Source of the DNA: Lepidurus packardi
Lineage: Eukaryota; Arthropoda; Branchiopoda; Notostraca; Triopsidae
Direction: 5' to 3'
DNA length: 64,000 nucleotides
NCBI GenBank assembly: GCA_023053545.1
Contig: JAKZAN010000039.1
Coordinates: 387,001-451,000 of the forward strand
Part shown: positions 3,001 to 26,100 of the stretch, piece by piece
Layout of the letters: every line of letters begins with the position of its first letter
Position numbering within the stretch: position 1 is the first letter of the stretch
The notes under the pieces: generated by a model
Seen by the model: the letters and a program-made list of their open reading frames with translations, nothing else
What the model was told of the DNA's origin: nothing
The model's database searches: none
Program-made: the position numbers and the translations under genes

Positions 3001-5270
3001 CCTTACGGACTGAATTAATTCCTTACGGACTGAATTAATTCCTTACGGACTGAATTAATTCCTTACGGACTGAAATATTTCCTTACGGACTGAATTAATA
3101 CTTTAGGATTGATTGAATTCGTTTCTTACTGAATTAATTCCTTACGGACTGAATTAATTCCTTACGGACTGAATTAATTCCTTACGGACTGAATTAATTC
3201 CTTACGGACTGAATTAATTCCTTACGGACTGAATTAATTCCTTACGGACTGAATTAATTCCTTACGGACTGAATTAATTCCTTACGGACTGAATTAATTC
3301 GTTACGGACTGAATTAATTCCTTACGGACTGAATTAATTCCTTACGGACTTAATTAAATCCTTACAGATTGAATTAATTCCTAATGGACTTAATTAATTC
3401 CGTAAGGTATGAATTAATTAATTACGGACTGAAATAATTCCTTACGGACTGAATTAATTCCTTAATTAATTCCTTACGGACTGAATTAATTTCATACGGA
3501 CTGAATTAATTCATTACGGACTTAATTAATCGATTACGGACTGAATTAATTCCTTACGTACTGAACTTATTCCTTACGGACTGAATTAATTCCTTACGGA
3601 CTGAATTAATTCCTTACGGACTGAATTAATTCCTTACGGACAGAATTAATTCCTTAATTAATTCCTTACGGACTGAATTAATTTCATACGGACTGAATTA
3701 ATTCATTACGGACTGAATTAATTCCTTACGGACTGAATTAATACCTTACGGACTGAATTAAATCCTTACGGACTGAATTAATTCCATACGGACTGAATTA
3801 ATTCATTACGGACTGAATTAATTCCTTACGGACAGAATTAATTCTTTAGGATTGATTGAATTCCTTTCTTACTGAATTAATTCCTTACGGACTGAAATAT
3901 TTCCTTACGGACTGAATTAATTCCTTACGGACTGAATTAATTCCTTACGGACTGAATTAATTCCTTACGGACTGAATTAAATCCTTACGGACTGAATTAA
4001 TTCATTACGGACTTAACTAAATCCTTACAGACTGAATTAATTCATTATGGACTTAATTAATTCCGTAAGGAATGAATGAATTAATTACGGACTGAAATAA
4101 TTCCTTACGGACTGAATTAATTCCTTACGGACTGAATTAATTTCATACGAACTGAAGTAATTCATTACGGACTTAATTAATCGATTACTAACTGAATTAA
4201 TTCCTTACGTACTGAACTTATTCCTTACGTACTGAACTAATTCCTTACGGACTGAATTAATTACGTACGGACTTAATTAATTCCTTACGGACTTAATTAA
4301 TTCATTACGGACTGAATTAATTCATTACGGACTGAATTAATTCATTACGGACTGAATTAATACCTTACGGACTGAATTAAATCCTTACGGACTGAACTAA
4401 TTCCTTAATTCCTTAGTTAATTCCTTACGGACTGAATTAATTTTATCCGGACTGAATTAATTCATTACGCACTTAATTCTTCCATTACGGAATGAATTGA
4501 TTCCTTAAGGACTGTATTAATTCCTTACGGACTGAATTAATACCTTACGGACTGAATTAAATCCTTACGGACTGAATTAATTCCTTACGGACTGAATTAA
4601 TACCTTACGGACTGAATTAAATCCTTACAGACTGAATTAATTCCTTACGGACTGAATTAATTCCTTACGGACTGAATTAATTCCTTACGGACTGAATTAA
4701 TTCCTTACGGACTGAATTAATTTCATCCGGACTGAATTATTTCCTTACGTATTGAAGTTATTCCTTACGGACTGAATTAATTCCTTACGGACTGAATTAA
4801 TTCCTTACGGACTGAATTAATTCCTTACGGACTTAATTAAATCCTTACAGACTGAATTAATTCCTTATGGACTTAATTAATTCCGTAAGGTATGAATTAA
4901 TTAATTACGGACTGAAATAATTCCTTACGGACTGAATTAATTCCTTAATTAATTCCTTACGGACTGAATTAATTTCATACGGACTGAATTAATTCATTAC
5001 GGACTTAATTAATCGATTACGGACTGAATTAATTCCTTACGGACTGAATTAATTCCTTACGGACAGAATTAATTCCTTAATTAATTCCTTACGGACTGAA
5101 TTAATTTCATACGGACTGAATTAATTCATTACGGACTGAATTAATTCCTTACGGACTGAATTAATACCTTACGGACTGAATTAAATCCTTACGGACTGAA
5201 TTAATTCCATACGGACTGAATTAATTCATTACGGACTGAATTAATTCCTTACGGACAGAATTAATTCTTT
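1..5270 (+). repeat. Higher-order repeat, 2.86-2.88 kb and 1.42 kb periods
   Basis: Diagnostic variants recur in the same order. CGCACTGAAC lies at 131 and 2987 (2856 bp apart). AATTCGTTTC lies at 261 and 3116 (2855 bp). TACTAACTGA lies at 1311 and 4186 (2875 bp), then 5609 (1423 bp). CTTTAGGATTG preceded by a GGACAG monomer lies at 969, 3844 and 5267 (2875 and 1423 bp). The 20-bp change in spacing between early and late markers is one monomer gained or lost. This is a long segmental tandem copy inside the satellite with a nested 1.4-kb period. Confidence 0.85.
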
Positions 5271-15089: not shown

Positions 15090-15101
15090 TCTTAGTGAAT
15101 T
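15090..15101. repeat. Left target-site duplication of the retrotransposon
   Basis: TCTTAGTGAATT here matches TCTTACTGAATT at 20074-20085 except for one base (G at 15095, C at 20079). Uninterrupted copies of the same satellite stretch elsewhere, for example near 7785 and 22380, have C at that position, so the left copy carries the change. The last T cannot be separated from the adjoining T-run. Confidence 0.85.
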
Positions 15102-15118
15102 TTTTTTTTTTTTTTTTT
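15101..15118 (-). other. Poly(A) tail of the retrotransposon
   Basis: Eighteen T on the + strand, an A-tail in element sense, directly abutting the left target-site duplication. It marks the 3' end of the element and the point where cDNA synthesis was primed from the nicked + strand. One or more T may belong to the target. Confidence 0.92.
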
Positions 15119-15131
15119 AATTTAACAGGCG

Positions 15132-15145
15132 TAGGCTCGCGCCTA
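15132..15145 (-). promoter_or_regulatory. 3'-terminal hairpin with GCGA tetraloop
   Basis: In element sense, TAGGC-GCGA-GCCTA: a perfect 5-bp stem closed by a GNRA-class tetraloop, 13 nt before the poly(A) tail. Small 3'-terminal stem-loops are recognition signals for the reverse transcriptase in several LINE families; that role here is inferred. Confidence 0.6.
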
Positions 15146-15156
15146 TTGCCTCAAAC

Positions 15157-15162
15157 TTTATT
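15157..15162 (-). terminator. AATAAA polyadenylation signal
   Basis: AATAAA in element sense, 38 nt upstream of the poly(A) tail. The spacing is somewhat longer than the usual 10-30 nt, but the hairpin at 15132-15145 lies in between and could shorten the effective distance. Confidence 0.6.
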
Positions 15163-15200
15163 AAATAAGCCTTCTGTACATTGTCAATAATTTTAAAAAT

Positions 15201-15237
15201 TGTTAAAGGGGTGATGCTTCTGCATTACCCTTTAACA
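15201..15237 (-). promoter_or_regulatory. Long imperfect hairpin in the 3' UTR
   Basis: The outer arms TGTTAAAGGG and CCCTTTAACA pair perfectly over 10 bp. The stem continues for about 6 more pairs (TGATGC with GCATTA on the + strand, one G-T pair and one bulged G), closed by a 4-nt loop at 15218-15221. In the element RNA the G-T pair becomes an A-C mismatch. This is the strongest fold I found in the element and a candidate element of RNA recognition by the ORF2 protein. Confidence 0.65.
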
Positions 15238-15254
15238 TAGCACATAGAACAAAA

Positions 15255-15328
15255 GGGTGGAGAGGGGGATAGGACACAAAGGGGGGGTGGAGGGGGGGAC
15301 ACATGACAAGGAGGGTGGAGGGGGGGAA
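15255..15328 (-). repeat. Three-copy C-rich (G-rich on + strand) motif
   Basis: GGGTGGAG followed by a G-run occurs three times on the + strand, at 15255, 15285 and 15313 (28-30 bp spacing), with runs of 5-7 G. In element RNA the block is C-rich. The + strand could form G-quadruplexes. It lies immediately downstream of ORF2 and looks like a small tandem expansion in the 3' UTR. Confidence 0.75.
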
Positions 15329-15354
15329 GACAGCAGGGCAAAAAACTCTGCTAA

Positions 15355-18300
15355 CTAGAACTCCCTTATGCAACTTTGATTCGCTTCGTGTAGAAAAATA
15401 GTAAGTGTGTTGAAAGCTTTAGGGCTGGTTAGCAATTCTTTTGCGTTAAAATGGATTTTTAACTTGTTTAGCTTCTGGAGTAGTTGGGCACGTTGCTTGT
15501 TGAGTCGACGACAGTGGAACAGTAGATGCGGTAGGTCCTGTCTAGTTCTATCCTGGCATGGACATAGGTCCGAGTCGGATTTTTGGATTCGTTGGAGGTA
15601 GCTCCTGGTTGGGAAGTGTGTGGTTCTCACTTGAATCATCTTTGAGATGATTGTCCTGGGAAGGTGGACGTGCACTATTCCTTGACGAGATGGTCCATGG
15701 GTCAGATCCTGTAACGGGCTCTGAGAATTGTTCCAACGTTCCTTCCATTGACTCATCGTTGCTTCTTCTATCCAACCACGAGCAACCTTTATGGAATCTG
15801 GGCTTGACTTCCAGACGACGGTTGCAAGTACTCTTGCCCTCTCCAAACAGGACGTGTATCGTCTGTGCCTGGGTACCTCTTCGGAAACGGGCCATTTGTC
15901 CCAGTATCTTGAAGCGTAGTGGCGGAGCACTAATCTCTCGAGGTACAAATCGAATGGTGGTAGGCCCGATTCTATTTCCAAAGCAACGGTTGGGGTTGTT
16001 TTGAGGGCTCCTGTTATTGCTAACAGGCCCTTTCTATACAGTTGGATAATGGGTCGTAGCTTAGCCAAAGAGATGTTGCACCAGGCTGGGAAAGCGTAGC
16101 TTAGTTTTGAGAGGACCGTCGTCTGAAAAAGAGTACGGACCTGACGGCAAGTGACAGCTCTTGAAAATCTCATCACTTTGTGTATCCTTTGCAGGGTTAA
16201 ATTGCATTGGACTACCAGACGGTTAACATGGTGTGTCCATGTGAGACTATTGTCATAAACTAGACCGAGGTACCTGACCGCATCCTTAGAATGGACTATC
16301 GTACCGTCCCAAACGAGGGGTGTGGCTTCTGGTTGGTGCTTTTTGGAAAAGTGAATTAATTCCGTCTTTTCTTTCGCAAACTGTAGTCGGTGCTTCTTAG
16401 CCCATTTTTCGAGCGCAGCCAAGTTGTTGCTCAGAAGCTTGACATTTTTCTCGCTGGAGGTGCTCGATGTAAAAATCAACAGGTCATCCGCGAAAGCTTG
16501 CATGTCGATCTTCTTCCGTTTTATGCATCCCAACGCTCCATCAATGTACATCAAGAATAATATCGGTGATAGGGGAGAGCCTTGCGGAACTCCCTTAATA
16601 ATCGAGACGACATCACTTTTTTCTTCACCAAAAACCACATATGCTCTCCGTTTCTCGAGAAAACTCTTAATCCAAACGGTCACTTGTGATGGAACTTTCA
16701 GCGCCCAAAGCTCTTCAACTAACACTTCGTGGTTTACATTGTCAAATGCTCCGGAAATGTCCAACAGTAAGGCTGAAAGGACTTTTCCTTTATCGAAGCT
16801 ATCCAAAATCGCATCACTGAAATTCACCATGGCATCCACTGTTGATCTCCCTGGTCTAAAACCCCATTGCATATCCGACAACTTATCGTTATCTTCTAGA
16901 AACAGCTTTAACCGATTTGCTATTGCCTTTTCTAGTATTTTCCCCAATACCGGTAGCAGGGAGATTGGTCGAAAACTCTTGATTGACGTGTAGCCCTGCT
17001 TCCCAGGCTTAGGGAGCGTAATAACTTTAGCAGTCTTCCATGCTTTGGGGTGATATTCCAGGGCCAGAGAGGCATTGTACAAGCTAACCACTGTTGGGTC
17101 AATAACACTCCATAGGGATTTAATGATGATTGCTTGGATTTCATCCACTCCAGCAGCTTTACGTGGTTGGAGTCCCTCGATTATCTCAGAAATTTCCTCC
17201 CTGGTGAAAGGGGCTTCATAAAAAGAACCTCTGGTTTTCCGAGCTTTGTACAGGGAAGAACGGCGTCGTAGGGAATCTTCTTGCGAATTTACCGGGGCCC
17301 CGTCCAGCAGGTGTGTCGCCACAAAATTTAATTTCGTAATCGCATCTGGGAAAGGCGTACCATCATTTCGTCTCAGGAATTCGAGCTTGTTATTATTGTA
17401 GACCCTCATTTGCCGGTCTAGGTTCCAAATAACCCTGCTGTCTGGTGTATTAAGTTGTTCAGACCAATACGTATTCCTGAATTCCCTGGTTTTCGCTCTA
17501 TAGGCATTCCTGGTTTCTTTCCATACCTTTTCCCTCTCAGAGCCCCCGTGTGTACGGTACTGTCTGAGCACAGCCGCTGTTTGTTTACGAAGGATTTGGA
17601 GCTCCCTATTCCACCAAGGATTGTTCCTGTTATTTGCGGATTTTTTGGGGATACTTTTCGTCATTTCCGTCTGGATGATTGTTGTAAGCCTGTCAACGGC
17701 TATGTCCAAAGCGATAGGGCTCGAAAGATCTGCGAACTTAGGTGATGCCTTCAGTACCTCACCCCGTACGTTAGAGGCGAGTTCTTTCCAATTGACCCTG
17801 CTGTAGCACCATGTTGTCCTTGCCGTGTGGGTTTGCAAAAGATTAAGGGAAATCACTATGGCTTTGTGATCTGATTCATTGTAATACTCTGCTTCATCCA
17901 GGACGTGCCAATCTGTGGTCTTGATTAATTGCGGGGAACACCACGTGAGGTCTAAAGTCGATTTGTGCCCACGCTCGTTGTGAAATGTTGGGACATTCCA
18001 TTCATTAATCAAGTCCAAGTGATGTTCTGTGGCAAAGTCGTACAATTGTATTCCCGGTATATCTGAAGCTTTATCCTCCCACCGCCAGTGACGGGCATTG
18101 AAATCTCCTGTTACTATCACAGGGTCGTGTTGGTTGTAATTTCCCCAGGCTTCTTCAAGAAGCGACGCGGTGTTAGCTGTGTGCCTTCTATATATTGCAA
18201 GTATGGATATCGCTCGTCCTCCTGGGTTTGCCAACCTAATTTTCGCGTATAGTTCCTTTATTTCAAGGACATAGAAACGGCTGTCTGGCTTACGGAGCAG

Positions 18301-18489
18301 CATCACTCCTTCATAAGCAAGAGACGGAGTAATAACGTCAAATCCCATGATACGTGATTGAGTGTAGTTCTGTGGCGGCTCCAATAAAATAACCAAGGTT
18401 ACATCTTCACTGTTTGCCTCTCTAGCAACTTCAGTAAGTTGAGATGTGCTTTTACGAATGTTCTGCACAATCAATCGTACCAATCCCAT
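15355..18489 (-). CDS. ORF2: endonuclease and reverse transcriptase polyprotein
   Basis: A 1044-residue protein that nicks target DNA and copies the element RNA onto it (target-primed reverse transcription). N-terminal APE-type endonuclease, about residues 1-215: N10, E37, GDFNA 128-132, the STLD motif around D180, and SDH at 206-208 with the catalytic H208. Reverse transcriptase, about 480-760: FRPISLLP 506-513, FRPGRST 544-550, LLLDISGAFDN with D577 and D583, GVPQGSPLSP 633-642, and the catalytic FADD 666-669. Near the C terminus is C976-x-C978-x9-H988-x4-C993, a zinc-binding motif seen in R1/Jockey-type ORF2 proteins. No RNase H domain is visible. No internal stop or frameshift; all key catalytic residues are present, so the enzyme may be functional. 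The start ATG is three nucleotides after the ORF1 stop and in the same frame. Confidence 0.95.
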   Translation of the reverse strand: MGLVRLIVQNIRKSTSQLTEVAREANSEDVTLVILLEPPQNYTQSRIMGFDVITPSLAYEGVMLLRKPDSRFYVLEIKELYAKIRLANPGGRAISILAIYRRHTANTASLLEEAWGNYNQHDPVIVTGDFNARHWRWEDKASDIPGIQLYDFATEHHLDLINEWNVPTFHNERGHKSTLDLTWCSPQLIKTTDWHVLDEAEYYNESDHKAIVISLNLLQTHTARTTWCYSRVNWKELASNVRGEVLKASPKFADLSSPIALDIAVDRLTTIIQTEMTKSIPKKSANNRNNPWWNRELQILRKQTAAVLRQYRTHGGSEREKVWKETRNAYRAKTREFRNTYWSEQLNTPDSRVIWNLDRQMRVYNNNKLEFLRRNDGTPFPDAITKLNFVATHLLDGAPVNSQEDSLRRRSSLYKARKTRGSFYEAPFTREEISEIIEGLQPRKAAGVDEIQAIIIKSLWSVIDPTVVSLYNASLALEYHPKAWKTAKVITLPKPGKQGYTSIKSFRPISLLPVLGKILEKAIANRLKLFLEDNDKLSDMQWGFRPGRSTVDAMVNFSDAILDSFDKGKVLSALLLDISGAFDNVNHEVLVEELWALKVPSQVTVWIKSFLEKRRAYVVFGEEKSDVVSIIKGVPQGSPLSPILFLMYIDGALGCIKRKKIDMQAFADDLLIFTSSTSSEKNVKLLSNNLAALEKWAKKHRLQFAKEKTELIHFSKKHQPEATPLVWDGTIVHSKDAVRYLGLVYDNSLTWTHHVNRLVVQCNLTLQRIHKVMRFSRAVTCRQVRTLFQTTVLSKLSYAFPAWCNISLAKLRPIIQLYRKGLLAITGALKTTPTVALEIESGLPPFDLYLERLVLRHYASRYWDKWPVSEEVPRHRRYTSCLERARVLATVVWKSSPDSIKVARGWIEEATMSQWKERWNNSQSPLQDLTHGPSRQGIVHVHLPRTIISKMIQVRTTHFPTRSYLQRIQKSDSDLCPCQDRTRQDLPHLLFHCRRLNKQRAQLLQKLNKLKIHFNAKELLTSPKAFNTLTIFLHEANQSCIREF

Positions 18490-18495
18490 TGTCTA
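18487..18495 (-). promoter_or_regulatory. ORF1 stop / ORF2 start junction (TAG-ACA-ATG)
   Basis: In element sense the ORF1 stop TAG is followed by a single codon ACA and then the ORF2 ATG, all in one frame (19863 to 18489 is 458 whole codons). ORF2 could therefore be made either by termination and re-initiation at the close ATG or by stop-codon readthrough giving a fused ORF1-ORF2 protein. Stop-start coupling is known for the R1-clade element SART1 (UAAUG); the arrangement here differs in being in-frame. Confidence 0.7.
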
Positions 18496-19863
18496 TTTGC
18501 TCCTTGACGCGGACTTCTTGCCCTTTGCGTCTATCTCCTTCAATCGAGTGGGACAAGCGGGGTCAAATGCGTAGTGTTTGTCTTTGCAGTTCGCACATTT
18601 CTTCGTTACCTCCGTGCATTGCCTTGTGTCGTGATTCTTTGAACATTTCCCGCAGGTTGGTGTCTTTTCACGGCAAGACGCTGACATATGGCCATAGGCC
18701 TGGCAGTTGAAGCATTGAAGGATTTGAGGGTATTTTACGTTTTCCACTTGGACTATGCGGTTAAACGCAAAGATGGCCCCAACTTCCAACAAACTTTTCT
18801 TCTCCTCGGCTGAATTACAGGTGAACTTGATAGACCCATACGCTTTTTTTAAATCGGGGTTTAGCCACTTTGCCTGGTCCGCATGAAAGATGATTCCCAA
18901 GTTTGAGTTTTTGTCCGAGATGTGTTCACAAATTTCGGGCAGGCTTTGGTCCTTTGGAAGCTGGTGGATAACCACCACCAAGTTTGGTTGTCTCTTAACC
19001 ATTTTAACAGGTCCCAAACTTGGCAAAACCGCCGATTCGAGGATGGATTCGGAAGTGGATTTCTCCTCTTGGCTTTTGTACGTGAGGGCGAGTCTGTTCG
19101 TTCGGGTTTTCCCGACAAGGACAGGTTTCGGTGCTGTTGGGTACGCTTTAGATAAGTCGTCCTCGATTACCTTCAGGAGATCTTTCCTCGGAATGACCGC
19201 GTTTCGTTTGGTCTCATCTTCCTGTTGGATAAATAGCGTTAAGCCATCTTCGTCTTGCTCACCTGACTCTTGCATGGCAGGGGTGGCAATTGAGGTAGTT
19301 GACACCTTGGGTGGTGGTCTAGCTCTCCTCCTCACAACTTGTGTCCAAGTGCTTGTTTGAGCAGAGGACGAGGGGGCTTGGCATTGATTTGGTTGATTAT
19401 CTCTAACAGTAGGCTTCAAGGAAGGTTTCCCGCGTTCTTCTTCCAGGTCTTTGCGAAGTCCAATAACTTCCACTTTAAGTGCCAAAATTTCCTGGTTCAG
19501 AAGGTCGTTACTATCTTTCAATGACCTAAGCGTTGATACGATGTAATCCAACGTAGACGTTTGCGTAGGGTCATCGATTGAAAAGGACCTTTTTCGAAAC
19601 GCTAGGTCGTCTGAAGGGGATAGCATAGGACGTTTCTGCGCTTGAACTGGGTTTAGTTTTTTTTCCCGACGCGGTTTGCAGTTTTTAGCCGCAGGCTTGT
19701 CTTTTTGAAAGAGGTCTCCACAGGATTGACATTTCACTTGAGGTTGAAGTGTGACGGTTGGATTGGGTGAGTCTATTTCGATTTCTTCAAGAGCGCGGGA
19801 CGGGCCGGCTTGAGGAAAACGGATTCCCCCTTTTACGGGCGAGTTTCCCGGAGTCCTTAACAT
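18493..19863 (-). CDS. ORF1: gag-like nucleic-acid-binding protein with zinc knuckles
   Basis: A 456-residue protein, expected to coat the element RNA and form the ribonucleoprotein. The C-terminal part holds three cysteine-histidine knuckles: C384-x2-C387-x4-H392-x4-C397 (canonical), C404-x2-C407-x3-H411-x4-C416 and C423-x2-C426-x3-H430-x6-C437. The residues around 290-380, just before the knuckles, resemble the folded RNA-binding region of insect LINE ORF1 proteins. A likely coiled coil lies at about 104-143 (leucine and isoleucine heptads with many charged residues). An extra C45-x2-C48 pair plus C62 near the N terminus is unusual and could be a further metal site. The tail (after 440) is rich in lysine, arginine and serine. 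The chosen ATG is the first in the frame and lies 8 nt after a small hairpin. The frame is fully open. Confidence 0.93.
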   Translation of the reverse strand: MLRTPGNSPVKGGIRFPQAGPSRALEEIEIDSPNPTVTLQPQVKCQSCGDLFQKDKPAAKNCKPRREKKLNPVQAQKRPMLSPSDDLAFRKRSFSIDDPTQTSTLDYIVSTLRSLKDSNDLLNQEILALKVEVIGLRKDLEEERGKPSLKPTVRDNQPNQCQAPSSSAQTSTWTQVVRRRARPPPKVSTTSIATPAMQESGEQDEDGLTLFIQQEDETKRNAVIPRKDLLKVIEDDLSKAYPTAPKPVLVGKTRTNRLALTYKSQEEKSTSESILESAVLPSLGPVKMVKRQPNLVVVIHQLPKDQSLPEICEHISDKNSNLGIIFHADQAKWLNPDLKKAYGSIKFTCNSAEEKKSLLEVGAIFAFNRIVQVENVKYPQILQCFNCQAYGHMSASCREKTPTCGKCSKNHDTRQCTEVTKKCANCKDKHYAFDPACPTRLKEIDAKGKKSASRSK

Positions 19864-19871
19864 TTCGTCAC

Positions 19872-19884
19872 AGGGCTAGGCCCT
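19872..19884 (-). promoter_or_regulatory. Small hairpin before the ORF1 start
   Basis: In element sense AGGGC-CTA-GCCCT, a perfect 5-bp stem with a 3-nt loop, ending 8 nt before the ORF1 ATG. It could slow scanning ribosomes slightly; this may also be chance. Confidence 0.4.
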
Positions 19885-19894
19885 AAACAGTCAC

Positions 19895-19912
19895 TTAAAG
19901 GTCCTCGTTCAT
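19895..19912 (-). CDS. Five-codon upstream ORF in the 5' UTR
   Basis: ATG at 19912 opens a five-residue frame (M-N-E-D-L) closed by TAA, ending 31 nt before the ORF1 ATG. It is the only ATG in the 5' UTR. It may lower ORF1 translation; there is no evidence that the peptide itself matters. Confidence 0.35.
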   Translation of the reverse strand: MNEDL

Positions 19913-20073
19913 ACACACAGCGGTAATTAAACGTTATGAAAACAGTCAACAAAGGTGCGTAAAGCACCGAACTACACTTGGGAACAAAATCAATCCAAAC
20001 AAACTTGGGTACCCAATGAAACACGTCAAAAAGCAAGAGCGCGCTACAAACACGTCTGAACTTCCCGCCAACC

Positions 20074-20085
20074 TCTTACTGAATT
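20074..20085. repeat. Right target-site duplication of the retrotransposon
   Basis: TCTTACTGAATT, the intact copy of the sequence at 15090-15101. The satellite continues directly after it with AATTCCTTACGG and then the GAATGAATTCC variant. This is the same order as in uninterrupted copies near 7790 and 22385, so no target sequence was lost. Confidence 0.88.
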
Positions 20086-20130: not shown

Positions 20131-23100
20131 CATACTCACTGAATTAATACCTTACGGACTGAATTAATTCCTTACGGACTGAATTAATTCCTTACGGACT
20201 GAATTAATTCCTTAATTCCTTAATTAATTCCTTACGGACTGAATTAATTTCATCCGGACTGAATTAATTCATTACGCACTTAATTAATCCATTACGGACT
20301 GAATTATTTCCTTACGTATTGAAGTTATTCCTTACGGACTTAATTAATTCCTTACGGACTGATTTAAATCCATACGGACTTAGTTAATTCCTTACGGACT
20401 TAATTAATTCTTTACGGACTGAATTAATTCATTATGGACTGAATTAATTCCTTACGAACTTAATTAATTCCTTACGAAATGAATTAATTAGTTACGGACT
20501 GAATTAATTTCTTACGGACTGAATCAATTCATTACAGACTTAATTTATCCATTACGGACTTAATTAATTCATTACGGACTTAATTAATTCCTTACGGACT
20601 GAACTAATTCCTTACGGACTGAATTAATTCCTTACGGAATGAATTAATTCCTTACGGACTGAACTAATTCCTTAATTCCTTAATTAATTCCTTACGGACT
20701 GAATTAATTTCATCCGGACTGAATTAATTCATTACGCACTTAATTCTTCCATTACGGACTGAATTAATTCCTTAAGGACTGTATTAATTCCTTACGGACT
20801 GAATTAATACCTTACGGACTGAATTAAATCCTTACGGACTGAATTAATTCCTTACGGACTGAATTAATACCTTACGGACTGAATTAAATCCTTACAGACT
20901 GAATTAATTCCTTACGGACTGAATAAATTCCTTACGGACTGAATTAATTCCTTACGGACTGAATTAATTCCTTACGGACTGAATTAATTTCATCCGGACT
21001 GAATTATTTCCTTACGTATTGAAGTTATTCCTTACGGACTGAATTAATTCCTTACGCACTGAATTAATTCCTTACGGACTGAATTAATACCTTACGGACT
21101 GAATTAAATCCTTACGGACTGAATTAATTCCTTACGGACTTAATTAATTCCTTACGGACTGAATTAATTCATTACGGACTGAATTAATTCCTTACGGACT
21201 GAATTAATTCCTTACGGAACTAATTAATTCCTTACGGACGGAATTAATTCTTTACGGACTTAATTAATTCCTTACGTACTTAATTAATTCCTTACGGTCT
21301 GAATTAATTCCGTACGGATTTAATTAATTCCTTACGGACTGAATTAATTCCTTACGGACTGAATTAATTCATTACGGACTGAATTTATTCCTTACGGACT
21401 GAATTATTTCCTTACGGACTGAATTAATTCTTTAGGATTGATTGAATTCCTTTCTTACTGAAAAAATTCCTTACGGACTGAATTAATTTCTTAATTAATT
21501 CCTTACGGACTGAATTAATTTCATACGGACTGAATTAATTCATTACGGACTTTATTAATCCATTACGGACTGAATTAATTCCTTACGGACTGAATTAGTT
21601 CCTTGCGGACTGAATTAATTCTATAGGATTTATTGAATTCCTTTCTTACTGAATTAATTCCTTACGGACTGACTGAATTCCTTACGGACTGAATTAATTT
21701 CATACGGACTGAATTATAACCTTACGAACTGAATTAATTTCATCCGGAATGAATTAATTCATTAAGCACTTAATTAATCCATTACGGACTGAGTTATTTC
21801 CTTACGTATTGAAGTTATTTCTTACGGACTGAATTAATTCCTTACGGACTGAATTAATACCTTACGGACTGAATTAAATCCTTACGGACTAAATTAATTC
21901 CTTAAGGACTTAATTAATTCCTTACGGACTGAATTAATTCATTACGGACTGAATTAATTCCTTACGGACTGAATTAATTCCTTACGGACCTAATTAATTC
22001 CTTACGGACGGAATTAATTCTTTACGGACTTAATTAATTCCTTACGAACTTAATTAATTCCTTACGTACTTAATTAATTCCTTACGGTCTGAATTAATTC
22101 CGTACGGATTTAATTAATTCCTTACGGTCTGAATTAATTCCTTACGGACTGAATTAATTCATTATGGACTTAATTAATTCCGTAAGGAATGAATGAATTA
22201 ATTACGGACTGAAATAATTCCTTACGGACTAAATAAATTCCTTACGAACTGAATTAATTCCTTACGGACTTAATTAATTCCTTACGGACTGAATTAATTC
22301 CTTACGGACTGTATTAATTCCTTACGGACTGAATTAGTACCTTACGGACTGAATTAATTCTTTAGGATTGATTGAATTCCTTTCTTACTGAATTAATTCC
22401 TTACGGACTGAATGAATTCCTTACGGACTGAATTAATTTCATACTCACTGAATTAATACCTTACGGACTGAATTAATTCCTTACGGACTGAATTAATTCC
22501 TTACGGACTGAATTAATTCCTTAATTAATTCCTTACGGACTGAATTAATTTCATCCGGACTGAATTAATTCATTACGCACTTAATTAATCCATTACGGAC
22601 TGAATTATTTCCTTACGTATTGAAGTTATTATTTACGGACTTAATTAATTCCTTACGGACTGATTTAAATCCATACGGACTTAGTTAATTCCTTACGGAC
22701 TTAATTAATTCTTTACGGACTGAATTAATTCATTATGGACTGAATTAATTCCTTACGAACTTAATTAATTCCTTACGAAATGAATTAATTAGTTACGGAC
22801 TGAATTAATTTCTTACGGACTGAATCAATTCATTACAGACTTAATTTATCCATTACGGACTTAATTAATTCATTACGGACTTAATTAATTCCTTACGGAC
22901 TGAACTAATTCCTTACGGACTGAATTAATTCCTTACGGAATGAATTAATTCCTTACGGACTGAACTAATTCCTTAATTCCTTAATTAATTCCTTACGGAC
23001 TGAATTAATTTCATCCGGACTGAATTAATTCATTACGCACTTAATTCTTCCATTACGGACTGAATTAATTCCTTAAGGACTGTATTAATTCCTTACGGAC

Positions 23101-26100
23101 TGAATTAATACCTTACGGACTGAATTAAATCCTTACGGACTGAATTAATTCCTTACGGACTGAATTAATACCTTACGGACTGAATTAAATCCTTACAGAC
23201 TGAATTAATTCCTTACGGACTGAATTAATTCCTTACGGACTGAATTAATTCCTTACGGACTGAATTAATTCCTTACGGACTGAATTAATTTCATCCGGAC
23301 TGAATTATTTCCTTACGTATTGAAGTTATTCCTTACGGACTGAATTAATTCCTTACGCACTGAATTAATTCCTTACGGACTGAATTAATACCTTACGGAC
23401 TGAATTAAATCCTTACGGACTGAATTAATTCCTTACGGACTTAATTAATTCCTTACGGACTGAATTAATTCATTACGGACTGAATTAATTCCTTACGGAC
23501 TGAATTAATTCCTTACGGAACTAATTAATTCCTTACGGACGGAATTAATTCTTTACGGACTTAATTAATTCCTTACGTACTTAATTAATTCCTTACGGTC
23601 TGAATTAATTCCGTACGGATTTAATTAATTCCTTACGGACTGAATTAATTCCTTACGGACTGAATTAATTCATTACGGACTGAATTTATTCCTTACGGAC
23701 TGAATTATTTCCTTACGGACTGAATTAATTCTTTAGGATTGATTGAATTCCTTTCTTACTGAAAAAATTCCTTACGGACTGAATTAATTTCTTAATTAAT
23801 TCCTTACGGACTGAATTAATTTCATACGGACTGAATTAATTCATTACGGACTTTATTAATCCATTACGGACTGAATTAATTCCTTACGGACTGAATTAGT
23901 TCCTTGCGGACTGAATTAATTCTATAGGATTTATTGAATTCCTTTCTTACTGAATTAATTCCTTACGGACTGACTGAATTCCTTACGGACTGAATTAATT
24001 TCATACGGACTGAATTATAACCTTACGAACTGAATTAATTTCATCCGGAATGAATTAATTCATTAAGCACTTAATTAATCCATTACGGACTGAGTTATTT
24101 CCTTACGTATTGAAGTTATTTCTTACGGACTGAATTAATTCCTTACGGACTGAATTAATACCTTACGGACTGAATTAAATCCTTACGGACTAAATTAATT
24201 CCTTACGGACTTAATTAATTCCTTACGGACTGAATTAATTCATTACGGACTGAATTAATTCCTTACGGACTGAATTAATTCCTTACGGACCTAATTAATT
24301 CCTTACGGACGGAATTAATTCTTTACGGACTTAATTAATTCCTTACGAACTTAATTAATTCCTTACGTACTTAATTAATTCCTTACGGTCTGAATTAATT
24401 CCGTACGGATTTAATTAATTCCTTACGGTCTGAATTAATTCCTTACGGACTGAATTAATTCATTATGGACTTAATTAATTCCGTAAGGAATGAATGAATT
24501 AATTACGGACTGAAATAATTCCTTACGGACTAAATAAATTCCTTACGAACTGAATTAATTCCTTACGGACTTAATTAATTCCTTACGGACTGAATTAATT
24601 CCTTACGGACTGTATTAATTCCTTACGGACTGAATTAGTACCTTACGGACTGAATTAATTCTTTAGGATTGATTGAATTCCTTTCTTACTGAATTAATTC
24701 CTTACGGACTGAATGAATTCCTTACGGACTGAATTAATTTCATACTCACTGAATTAATACCTTACGGACTGAATTAATTCCTTACGGACTGAATTAATTC
24801 CTTACGGACTGAATTAATTCCTTAATTAATTCCTTACGGACTGAATTAATTTCATCCGGACTGAATTAATTCATTACGCACTTAATTAATCCATTACGGA
24901 CTGAATTATTTCCTTACGTATTGAAGTTATTATTTACGGACTTAATTAATTCCTTACGGACTGATTTAAATCCATACGGACTTAGTTAATTCCTTACGGA
25001 CTTAATTAATTCTTTACGGACTGAATTAATTCATTATGGACTGAATTAATTCCTTACGAACTTAATTAATTCCTTACGAAATGAATTAATTAGTTACGGA
25101 CTGAATTAATTTCTTACGGACTGAATCAATTCATTACAGACTTAATTTATCCATTACGGACTTAATTAATTCATTACGGACTTAATTAATTCCTTACGGA
25201 CTGAACTAATTCCTTACGGACTGAATTAATTCCTTACGGAATGAATTAATTCCTTACGGACTGAACTAATTCCTTAATTCCTTAATTAATTCCTTACGGA
25301 CTGAATTAATTTCATCCGGACTGAATTAATTCATTACGCACTTAATTCTTCCATTACGGACTGAATTAATTCCTTAAGGACTGTATTAATTCCTTACGGA
25401 CTGAATTAATACCTTACGGACTGAATTAAATCCTTACGGACTGAATTAATTCCTTACGGACTGAATTAATACCTTACGGACTGAATTAAATCCTTACAGA
25501 CTGAATTAATTCCTTACGGACTGAATTAATTCCTTACGGACTGAATTAATTCCTTACGGACTGAATTAATTCCTTACGGACTGAATTAATTTCATCCGGA
25601 CTGAATTATTTCCTTACGTATTGAAGTTATTCCTTACGGACTGAATTAATTCCTTACGCACTGAATTAATTCCTTACGGACTGAATTAATACCTTACGGA
25701 CTGAATTAAATCCTTACGGACTGAATTAATTCCTTACGGACTTAATTAATTCCTTACGGACTGAATTAATTCATTACGGACTGAATTAATTCCTTACGGA
25801 CTGAATTAATTCCTTACGGAACTAATTAATTCCTTACGGACGGAATTAATTCTTTACGGACTTAATTAATTCCTTACGTACTTAATTAATTCCTTACGGT
25901 CTGAATTAATTCCGTACGGATTTAATTAATTCCTTACGGACTGAATTAATTCCTTACGGACTGAATTAATTCATTACGGACTGAATTTATTCCTTACGGA
26001 CTGAATTATTTCCTTACGGACTGAATTAATTCTTTAGGATTGATTGAATTCCTTTCTTACTGAAAAAAATCCTTACGGACTGAATTAATTTCTTAATTAA

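Follow-up and report, generated by a model that had tools for sequence, protein, structure and literature searches.

Within 64,000 nucleotides of a Lepidurus packardi contig (JAKZAN010000039.1; hereafter, the window) a LINE lies embedded in satellite DNA, and the locus raises the question of whether this is a recent insertion of a family that may still be active, and of how the element came to lie in a satellite. The background, described in a first-pass annotation as a 20-bp satellite, is a single 20-bp array that extends across the window. The element spans positions 15101-20073 and is complete, with two ORFs; it is on the minus strand, which corrects the earlier description.

Architecture of the element

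The UTRs, poly(A) tail and target-site duplication that had been called recognisable could each be located in the window, where the features are arranged as follows:

20074..20085, minus strand: target-site duplication, 5' copy AATTCAGTAAGA, in the state of the empty sites
19864..20073, minus strand: 5' UTR (sequence read directly)
18493..19863, minus strand: ORF1, 456 amino acids, with three Cys/His zinc knuckles near the C-terminus
about 18553-18717, minus strand: zinc knuckles of ORF1, the third read by eye
18487..18495, minus strand: stop-restart junction UAG ACA AUG, with ORF1 and ORF2 in the same frame
15355..18489, minus strand: ORF2, 1044 amino acids
about 17857-18489, minus strand: APE-type endonuclease of ORF2
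16261-17013, minus strand: reverse transcriptase of ORF2
about 15511-15564, minus strand: C-terminal CxC...H...C of ORF2
15119..15354, minus strand: 3' UTR with C-rich tracts (sequence read directly)
15157-15162, minus strand: AATAAA in the 3' UTR
15127..15151, minus strand: 3'-terminal hairpin AGGC-AA-UAGGC-GCGA-GCCUA-C-GCCU, which recurs as a counterpart in three sister families
15102..15118, minus strand: poly(A) tail, its border to the duplication ambiguous by two bases
15090..15101, minus strand: target-site duplication, 3' copy AATTCACTAAGA, with one change
about 21245-23536 and 23546-25837, minus strand: two satellite units of ~2.3 kb with the empty site

The 5' UTR also contains AGACGTG (20051-20057), which we take to be a DPE-like motif. 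Both ORFs run without interruption (19863-18493 and 18489-15355), and the GDFN, SDH and FADD motifs are found, in agreement with the annotated open frames and catalytic motifs of endonuclease and reverse transcriptase. Matches of ORF2 in Pfam were to RVT_1 (E-value 3.4e-44), Exo_endo_phos_2 (5.9e-18) and Exo_endo_phos (1.4e-7), with no RNase H family among these three matches (E up to 0.1). Among solved structures, the reverse transcriptase matches LINE-1 ORF2p (6.2e-21) and R2 (5.5e-13), with bacterial reverse transcriptases also among the hits of ORF2, and the endonuclease matches that of TRAS1 (1.9e-7). For ORF1, the Pfam match to zf-CCHC (8.9e-4) falls just under the curated cut-off (19.7 versus 20.8 bits), residues from about 380 to 418 match retroviral nucleocapsid knuckles (best 2.2e-4), and an RRM, which precedes the CCHC knuckles in the type I ORF1 of the Jockey clade, was not detected with Pfam. 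The openness of the ORFs is in itself little proof, since under neutral change those of the window copy would by chance have stayed clear of new stops in about 26% of cases.

Insertion into the satellite

The target-site duplication is 12 bp long. Its two copies differ by the one base noted at first pass, and the changed base sits in the 3' copy. The window holds 55 occurrences of the undivided 30-bp target site with no more than one mismatch (0.00 expected, 100 shuffles); the element's own 3' flank is one of these 55, and the sole one with C. When joined, the flanks of the element are 99.2% identical to the two neighbouring ~2.3-kb satellite units, which carry the empty site and thereby prove the insertion. 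Chance similarity of the flanks as the source of the duplication is ruled out by the empty sites and by the shuffle expectation. No long terminal repeats were seen at the insertion junctions. Between duplication and shared sequence, the copies L002, L003 and L014 carry 9, 13 and 22 nt, respectively, that are missing from the window element.

A young family of near-identical insertions

A search of the genome for near-identical copies, as the annotation had proposed, returned at least 18 stretches of 98.6-100% identity, window copy included; these counts are lower bounds, as scoring covered 40 out of 237 candidates. Seventeen of the 18 loci have usable junctions, and these define nine distinct insertions, each with poly(A) and duplication. 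The remaining locus, L016, was left out of this count: the contig ends on its 5' side, and its 3' side reaches only to position 4859 of the element, with no tail. Five of the nine insertions are 5'-truncated (at 81, 1535, 2501, 3584 and 3646) with intact 3' ends. Both ORFs are open in four (L001, L002, L003 and ins4, the last through L004-L006); L007 and L014 are broken near the start of ORF1, and L007, L008 and L012 in ORF2.

Because the window copy combines two open ORFs, poly(A), a target-site duplication and adjoining empty sites, and because there are eight further near-identical insertions with 5' truncations and insertion at T-rich nick sites, we put the probability at roughly nine in ten that it is a complete member of a young family of APE-type non-LTR retrotransposons. 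Literature searches run without the species name returned no paper on this LINE, which implies nothing about what is in print. On viral contigs, no relatives matched the six short patterns used. Insertions resembling mitochondrial COX1 look, by eye, like those of an arthropod.

It is extremely unlikely that the near-identical copies stem mainly from segmental or satellite duplication, or from two assembled haplotypes, instead of retrotransposition: the nine insertions have differing duplications or truncation points, and duplication of one cannot yield them. An origin of this kind is refuted for the nine insertions but holds for copies inside ins4, ins5 and ins6. One junction is common to L004-L007 and another to L008-L011, and contigs C30 and C36 each carry two L008-type copies separated by ~11 kb; these may be alleles.

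Scoring of 40 out of 93 candidates gave no match to the 3' end that was longer than 90 bp and had an identity of 79%-97%. The suggestion of a recent insertion and a possibly active family fits this gap together with the nine near-identical insertions; judged from sequence, the family may have undergone a recent burst and may still be active. The window copy is nevertheless the most divergent of the full-length ones, with 42-51 differences from L002-L007, against 22-36 among the L002, L003 and ins4 copies. Conceivably it predates the burst of the family and owes its extra substitutions to decay after insertion: over 4945 columns it has 30 private substitutions, compared with 9 in L002 and 8 in L003, and its 3' duplication carries one change. 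We consider this unlikely, as the host satellite unit has only 3 private changes in 2292 columns, whereas the element has 30 in its 4945 columns (Fisher 0.004). Here 7 of 10 satellite changes are shared with a fourth unit, leaving 3 as private, and the joined flanks used the 5' copy of the duplication, with the change in the 3' copy not counted among those of the satellite. Furthermore, the private coding changes comprise 14 synonymous and 14 non-synonymous ones, with about 8.5 synonymous expected (P=0.024). Gene conversion between satellite units could, however, have wiped changes from the flanks. Given how little the host satellite unit has changed, much of the divergence of the window copy is probably older than its insertion.

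Choice of target

The nick context on the bottom strand, read by hand, is T2-T5 followed by A in eight of the nine insertions and TTT^C in the ninth (L013). For ins4, ins5 and ins6 the duplications were set by hand; the satellite had misled the automatic finder for ins4 and ins5, and that of ins6 had been stretched into flanking A's. TRAS, SART and R1 insert specifically into telomeric repeats or rDNA, and the endonuclease of the present LINE might in the same way target the 20-bp repeat. Four of nine insertions are inside 20-bp satellites, which were present in 3 of 20 other contigs sampled and in none of 19 readable sampled stretches of six large contigs (a small sample, the 20th stretch being all N). 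Copies of the sister families are also seen, by eye, in satellites, and all three insertions in satellite of the window type share one register, GGAATT|AATT. The single register follows, however, from the 20-bp unit having one TTAATT, and two different satellites serve as targets. The other five insertions are outside 20-bp satellites at differing sites, all that is common to the nick sites is a T tract, with A next in eight of nine, and copies may simply be retained in satellites, which assemblies collapse. A satellite-specific LINE is thus very improbable and was set aside on account of the five insertions elsewhere; unlike the site-specific R1, TRAS and SART, this LINE has no fixed target sequence. 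The insertions conform to ordinary target-primed retrotransposition of a young family. The annotated rarity of a complete copy among satellite insertions stands only in part, as other near-complete copies occur there: a second insertion is missing only its first 80 nt, and a third looks formerly full-length and since broken up.

Proposed mechanism and comparison with known LINEs

We envisage that one RNA would yield ORF1p and then ORF2p by termination-reinitiation at UAG-ACA-AUG. ORF2p would bind the 3'-terminal hairpin and poly(A), nick DNA at TT(T)^A and reverse-transcribe from the nick. The satellite would be a passive target in which TTAATT recurs roughly every 20 bp, and some satellite-resident copies would then have multiplied through satellite duplication.

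At the level of shared features, the element resembles three groups of APE-type LINEs (Jockey, R1 and I): it has two ORFs, the first of them with three zinc knuckles, an APE endonuclease together with a reverse transcriptase, a C-terminal Cys/His motif, poly(A) and 5' truncation. The I factor is described as having RNase H (PMC2881922), in contrast to the ORF2 seen here, which has no RNase H match. Hebe, of the Jockey clade in the rotifer Adineta vaga, is built alike, combining two ORFs with three zinc knuckles, an APE domain, a reverse transcriptase and poly(A), and some of its copies also lie in tandem repeats; it has no 5'-truncated copies (PMC2861651), as opposed to five of nine insertions here. 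In the silkworm LINE SART1, ORF2 starts at the ORF1 stop by coupled termination-reinitiation (PMC5972666). The position of the ORF2 start is similar here and reinitiation would be too; the junction is UAG-ACA-AUG in one frame and, like the sister junctions (UAG-CUU-AUG, UAG-AUG and an AUGA overlap), differs from UAAUG. The proteins of stringent zebrafish LINEs are reported to recognise 3' tail RNA (PMC4176376); our four families have a short 3'-terminal hairpin that might be recognised in a similar way, with the difference that a poly(A) tail follows the hairpin.

Sister families as probable mosaics

The hairpin and the stop-restart ORF junction are common to this LINE and three sister families (B-D), whose close similarity to it is confined to a 5' segment. 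The comparisons reveal sharp breakpoints at which synonymous divergence jumps. Three distinct ones are found in one genome, near element positions 650, 1490 and 2234, one of them inside the endonuclease domain, and the 5' part is younger than the 3' part in all three comparisons made. Stronger protein constraint on the 5' half was set aside as an explanation, because the synonymous difference jumps too. The pattern suggests that sister families exchanged 5' halves, probably in three or more events given the three breakpoints. Reticulate evolution of ORF1 has been described in the Jockey superfamily (PMC4120745), and here too the history of the 5' part differs from that of the 3' part; the exchange proposed in the present case, unlike that one, would be between sister families within one genome, with mappable breakpoints.

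On balance we favour the view that this group of LINEs has evolved by acquiring new 5' halves again and again, through template switching between families. A reverse transcriptase that had begun at the 3' end of its own RNA would switch to the RNA of another family, and the resulting chimeras would retain their own 3' recognition hairpin and reverse transcriptase while gaining a new 5' UTR, a new ORF1 and, in some cases, a portion of the endonuclease. The complete insertion beside many empty sister sites provides a clean marker of satellite turnover, and the mosaic sister families bear evidence, at the level of breakpoints, on the way in which LINEs get new 5' ends.

The window element and its insertion site

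The 20-bp satellite forms a single array across the window, in which one large interruption is seen. The corresponding features, taken from ORF calls and reading of the sequence, are as follows.

15101-20073, minus strand: two-ORF element, a LINE (APE-type non-LTR retrotransposon) defining family A
15127-15151: hairpin at the 3' end of the element

ORF1 encodes 456 amino acids with Cys/His knuckles, and ORF2 encodes 1044 amino acids with endonuclease and reverse transcriptase domains. The stop codon of ORF1 is UAG, and ORF2 begins one codon further on in the identical frame. A stop-restart junction is present in all four families compared here (A and its sister families B, C and D), and is of the same kind as that described for SART1 (PMC5972666, PMC2881922). 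The 3' end carries AATAAA, the hairpin and a poly(A) tail; an Rfam search of the whole window at gathering scores gave no match. In the 3' UTR (window 15200-15340) the sense strand is rich in C, with G-runs opposite, and C-rich 3' UTRs are also seen in the three sister copies.

The target-site duplication reads AATTCAGTAAGA in the 5' flank and AATTCACTAAGA in the 3' flank. Because a direct repeat within satellite DNA is weak proof of insertion, an empty site was sought. The undivided target site, in its G form, occurs many times within the window, and the joined flanks match the two adjoining, empty units of ~2.3 kb with 99.2% identity over 2300 columns (10 and 11 mismatches, with one 8-base gap each). 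The window insertion is genuine. The C variant of the site adjoins the element only, among 55 site matches in the window, so that what changed was either the 3' duplication or this one target unit. The first-pass annotation had described a complete two-ORF LINE in a 20-bp satellite, with open ORFs, catalytic motifs, poly(A) tail and duplications differing by one base; each of these was found again, and its account is correct in the main. The element is an ordinary yet well-preserved LINE insertion.

Higher-order satellite units of ~2.3 kb are visible at 21245-25837 and in the flanks of the element, and the two empty units differ mutually at 1 of 2292 ungapped columns. At the 5' ends of five other copies (L002, L003, L014, L019 and L028, the last two judged by eye) the 9-26 nt that separate the duplication from the conserved sequence vary from copy to copy, even among members of one family; no such nucleotides are present in the window copy.

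Family A in the genome

The search for near-identical copies that the first-pass annotation had proposed returned at least 55 match rows, and at least 18 loci (window copy counted) at 98.6-100% identity; scores were computed for 40 of 237 candidates. When their junctions were read, 17 of these 18 loci fell into nine insertions.

Insertions of family A, from junction reading
Single loci: window copy (L001); L002; L003; L013; L017; L018
ins4: L004-L007
ins5: L008-L011
ins6: L012, L014, L015

The remaining locus, L016, begins at a contig end, breaks off at position 4859 of the element and has no tail; it was assigned to ins6 by its satellite, including in the counts of private substitutions. On contig C136, L014 and L015 look like one element copy split by satellite: the stretch separating them is non-element by genome search, the end of L014 is the start of satellite, and a short target duplication is identical at both ends, from which we infer that they form opposite ends of a single insertion. 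A search with the 3' end added a 97% piece on C58, which lies outside the 17-locus junction reading, and a 99-bp piece on C1 (L041), and found no match longer than 90 bp between 79% and 97% among the 40 of 93 candidates scored. Family A is young.

L001, L002, L003 and L004-L006 keep both ORFs open. ORF1 is broken near its start in L007, which also has a stop in ORF2, and in L014; ORF2 is interrupted by a stop in L008 and ends prematurely in L012, and nearly all of ORF1 is absent from ins5. The ins4 copies have one common junction, yet are 0-23 substitutions apart; those of ins5, also with one junction, are 0-9 apart. Both sets were either multiplied by satellite duplication or are partly allelic contigs. 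On C79, three sister-element copies (L024-L026) lie within satellite at ~6.6 kb spacing, as if the element had been absorbed into a larger tandem unit.

Across the insertions the duplications measure about 9-16 bp, and those of L003 and L017 also hold a single mismatch, in or beside an A run. The nicked strand reads TT(T)^A at eight of the nine sites and TTT^C at L013 (junctions read partly by hand). Four of the nine insertions lie within 20-bp satellites, of two kinds, and five elsewhere. In a small sample, 19 readable stretches of the six large contigs contained no period-20 satellite (a twentieth, flagged as satellite by the script, consisted of N throughout), and 3 out of 20 other contigs did contain it, so that satellite insertions look over-represented. 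Retention in satellite, together with the TTAATT that the repeat unit contains, could account for this excess with no need for dedicated targeting.

COX1-like stretches that contain TGA and other stops are numerous in nuclear contigs (L034-L037 and elsewhere) and are probably mitochondrial insertions; at L036, two pieces of one COX1 insertion flank long open frames that by eye resemble a BEL/Pao-type retrotransposon. Open COX1 frames were seen on C52, C214 and C43, which may be bacterial contigs.

Age of the window copy

Over 4945 columns, 30 substitutions are private to the window copy: 14 synonymous, 14 non-synonymous and 2 non-coding. L002 and L003 have 9 and 8. A neutral model predicts about 8.5 synonymous changes (P=0.024) and a 26% chance of zero new stops. 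The satellite unit that hosts the insertion shows 10 private differences when set against two neighbouring units. A fourth unit shares 7 of them, so that 3 remain in 2292 columns, not counting the change in the 3' duplication. The contrast between host unit and element (3/2292 versus 30/4945; Fisher 0.004) suggests that many of the private changes predate insertion and arose in a source lineage that was active. The flanks could also have stayed uniform through conversion between satellite units, and our confidence in a pre-insertion origin is therefore moderate.

A shared 3' hairpin

The hairpin directly precedes the poly(A) in families B, C and D too, which were picked by their 5' halves and not by the 3' end. 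In each of the four families it is the fold of minimum energy, with z from -1.35 (B) to -3.13. Further 3' ends were found with the last 111 bases as query (a lower bound, 40 of 52 candidates scored). Twenty were fetched (L041-L060), of which 19 passed the anchor filter, the tail of L044 being too short for it while its sequence is the same as the others; L041 is a member of family A. The likeness of these ends is not independent evidence, since they were found by similarity to the query itself. Covariation, in 11 sequences selected from 24, is slight: two pairs show change on both sides, in one sequence each, 34 of 500 shuffles reach the observed value, and the outermost bases do not pair in 7 of the 10 sequences. 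Paired cells amount to 87% for the hairpin structure versus 16-39% when it is slid, but one slid version has a higher covariation score (0.053 versus 0.048).

Mosaic sister families

One copy was fully read per sister family, and the breakpoints described here are those of that copy; ORF1 is broken in the copies of C and D. DNA identity was scanned in 150-base windows, with positions counted from the 5' end of the family A element.

Sister families compared with family A (amino acid identity; DNA identity; synonymous difference per site)
B (L019+L038): ORF1 76%, ORF2 58%; 0.69-0.85 until about 2234, then 0.44-0.67; 0.54-0.57, then 0.83-0.85
C (L028+L039): ORF1 74%, ORF2 54%; 0.79-0.89 until about 650-750, 0.65-0.80 until about 1490, then 0.43-0.69; 0.30-0.33 (the first segments, with 84 and 18 synonymous sites only), then 0.67, then 0.85-0.89
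D (L040): ORF1 82% then 50% along its length, ORF2 52%; 0.81-0.87 until about 600-660, then 0.41-0.69; 0.39, then 0.78-0.86

The drops in identity are abrupt, at breakpoints close to positions 650, 1490 and 2234 of the element, and the jumps in synonymous difference coincide with them in all three comparisons. Protein constraint does not account for this pattern, but separate histories of the 5' and 3' parts of the elements would. The 5' part is the younger one in all three comparisons, as expected if the reverse transcriptase were to start at its own 3' end and then switch to the RNA of another family; we infer such template switching as the mechanism of 5' exchange. DNA recombination, or constraint acting on the nucleotides themselves, would be alternative sources of the mosaic pattern. 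These mosaic sister families are the aspect of wider interest beyond the window insertion.
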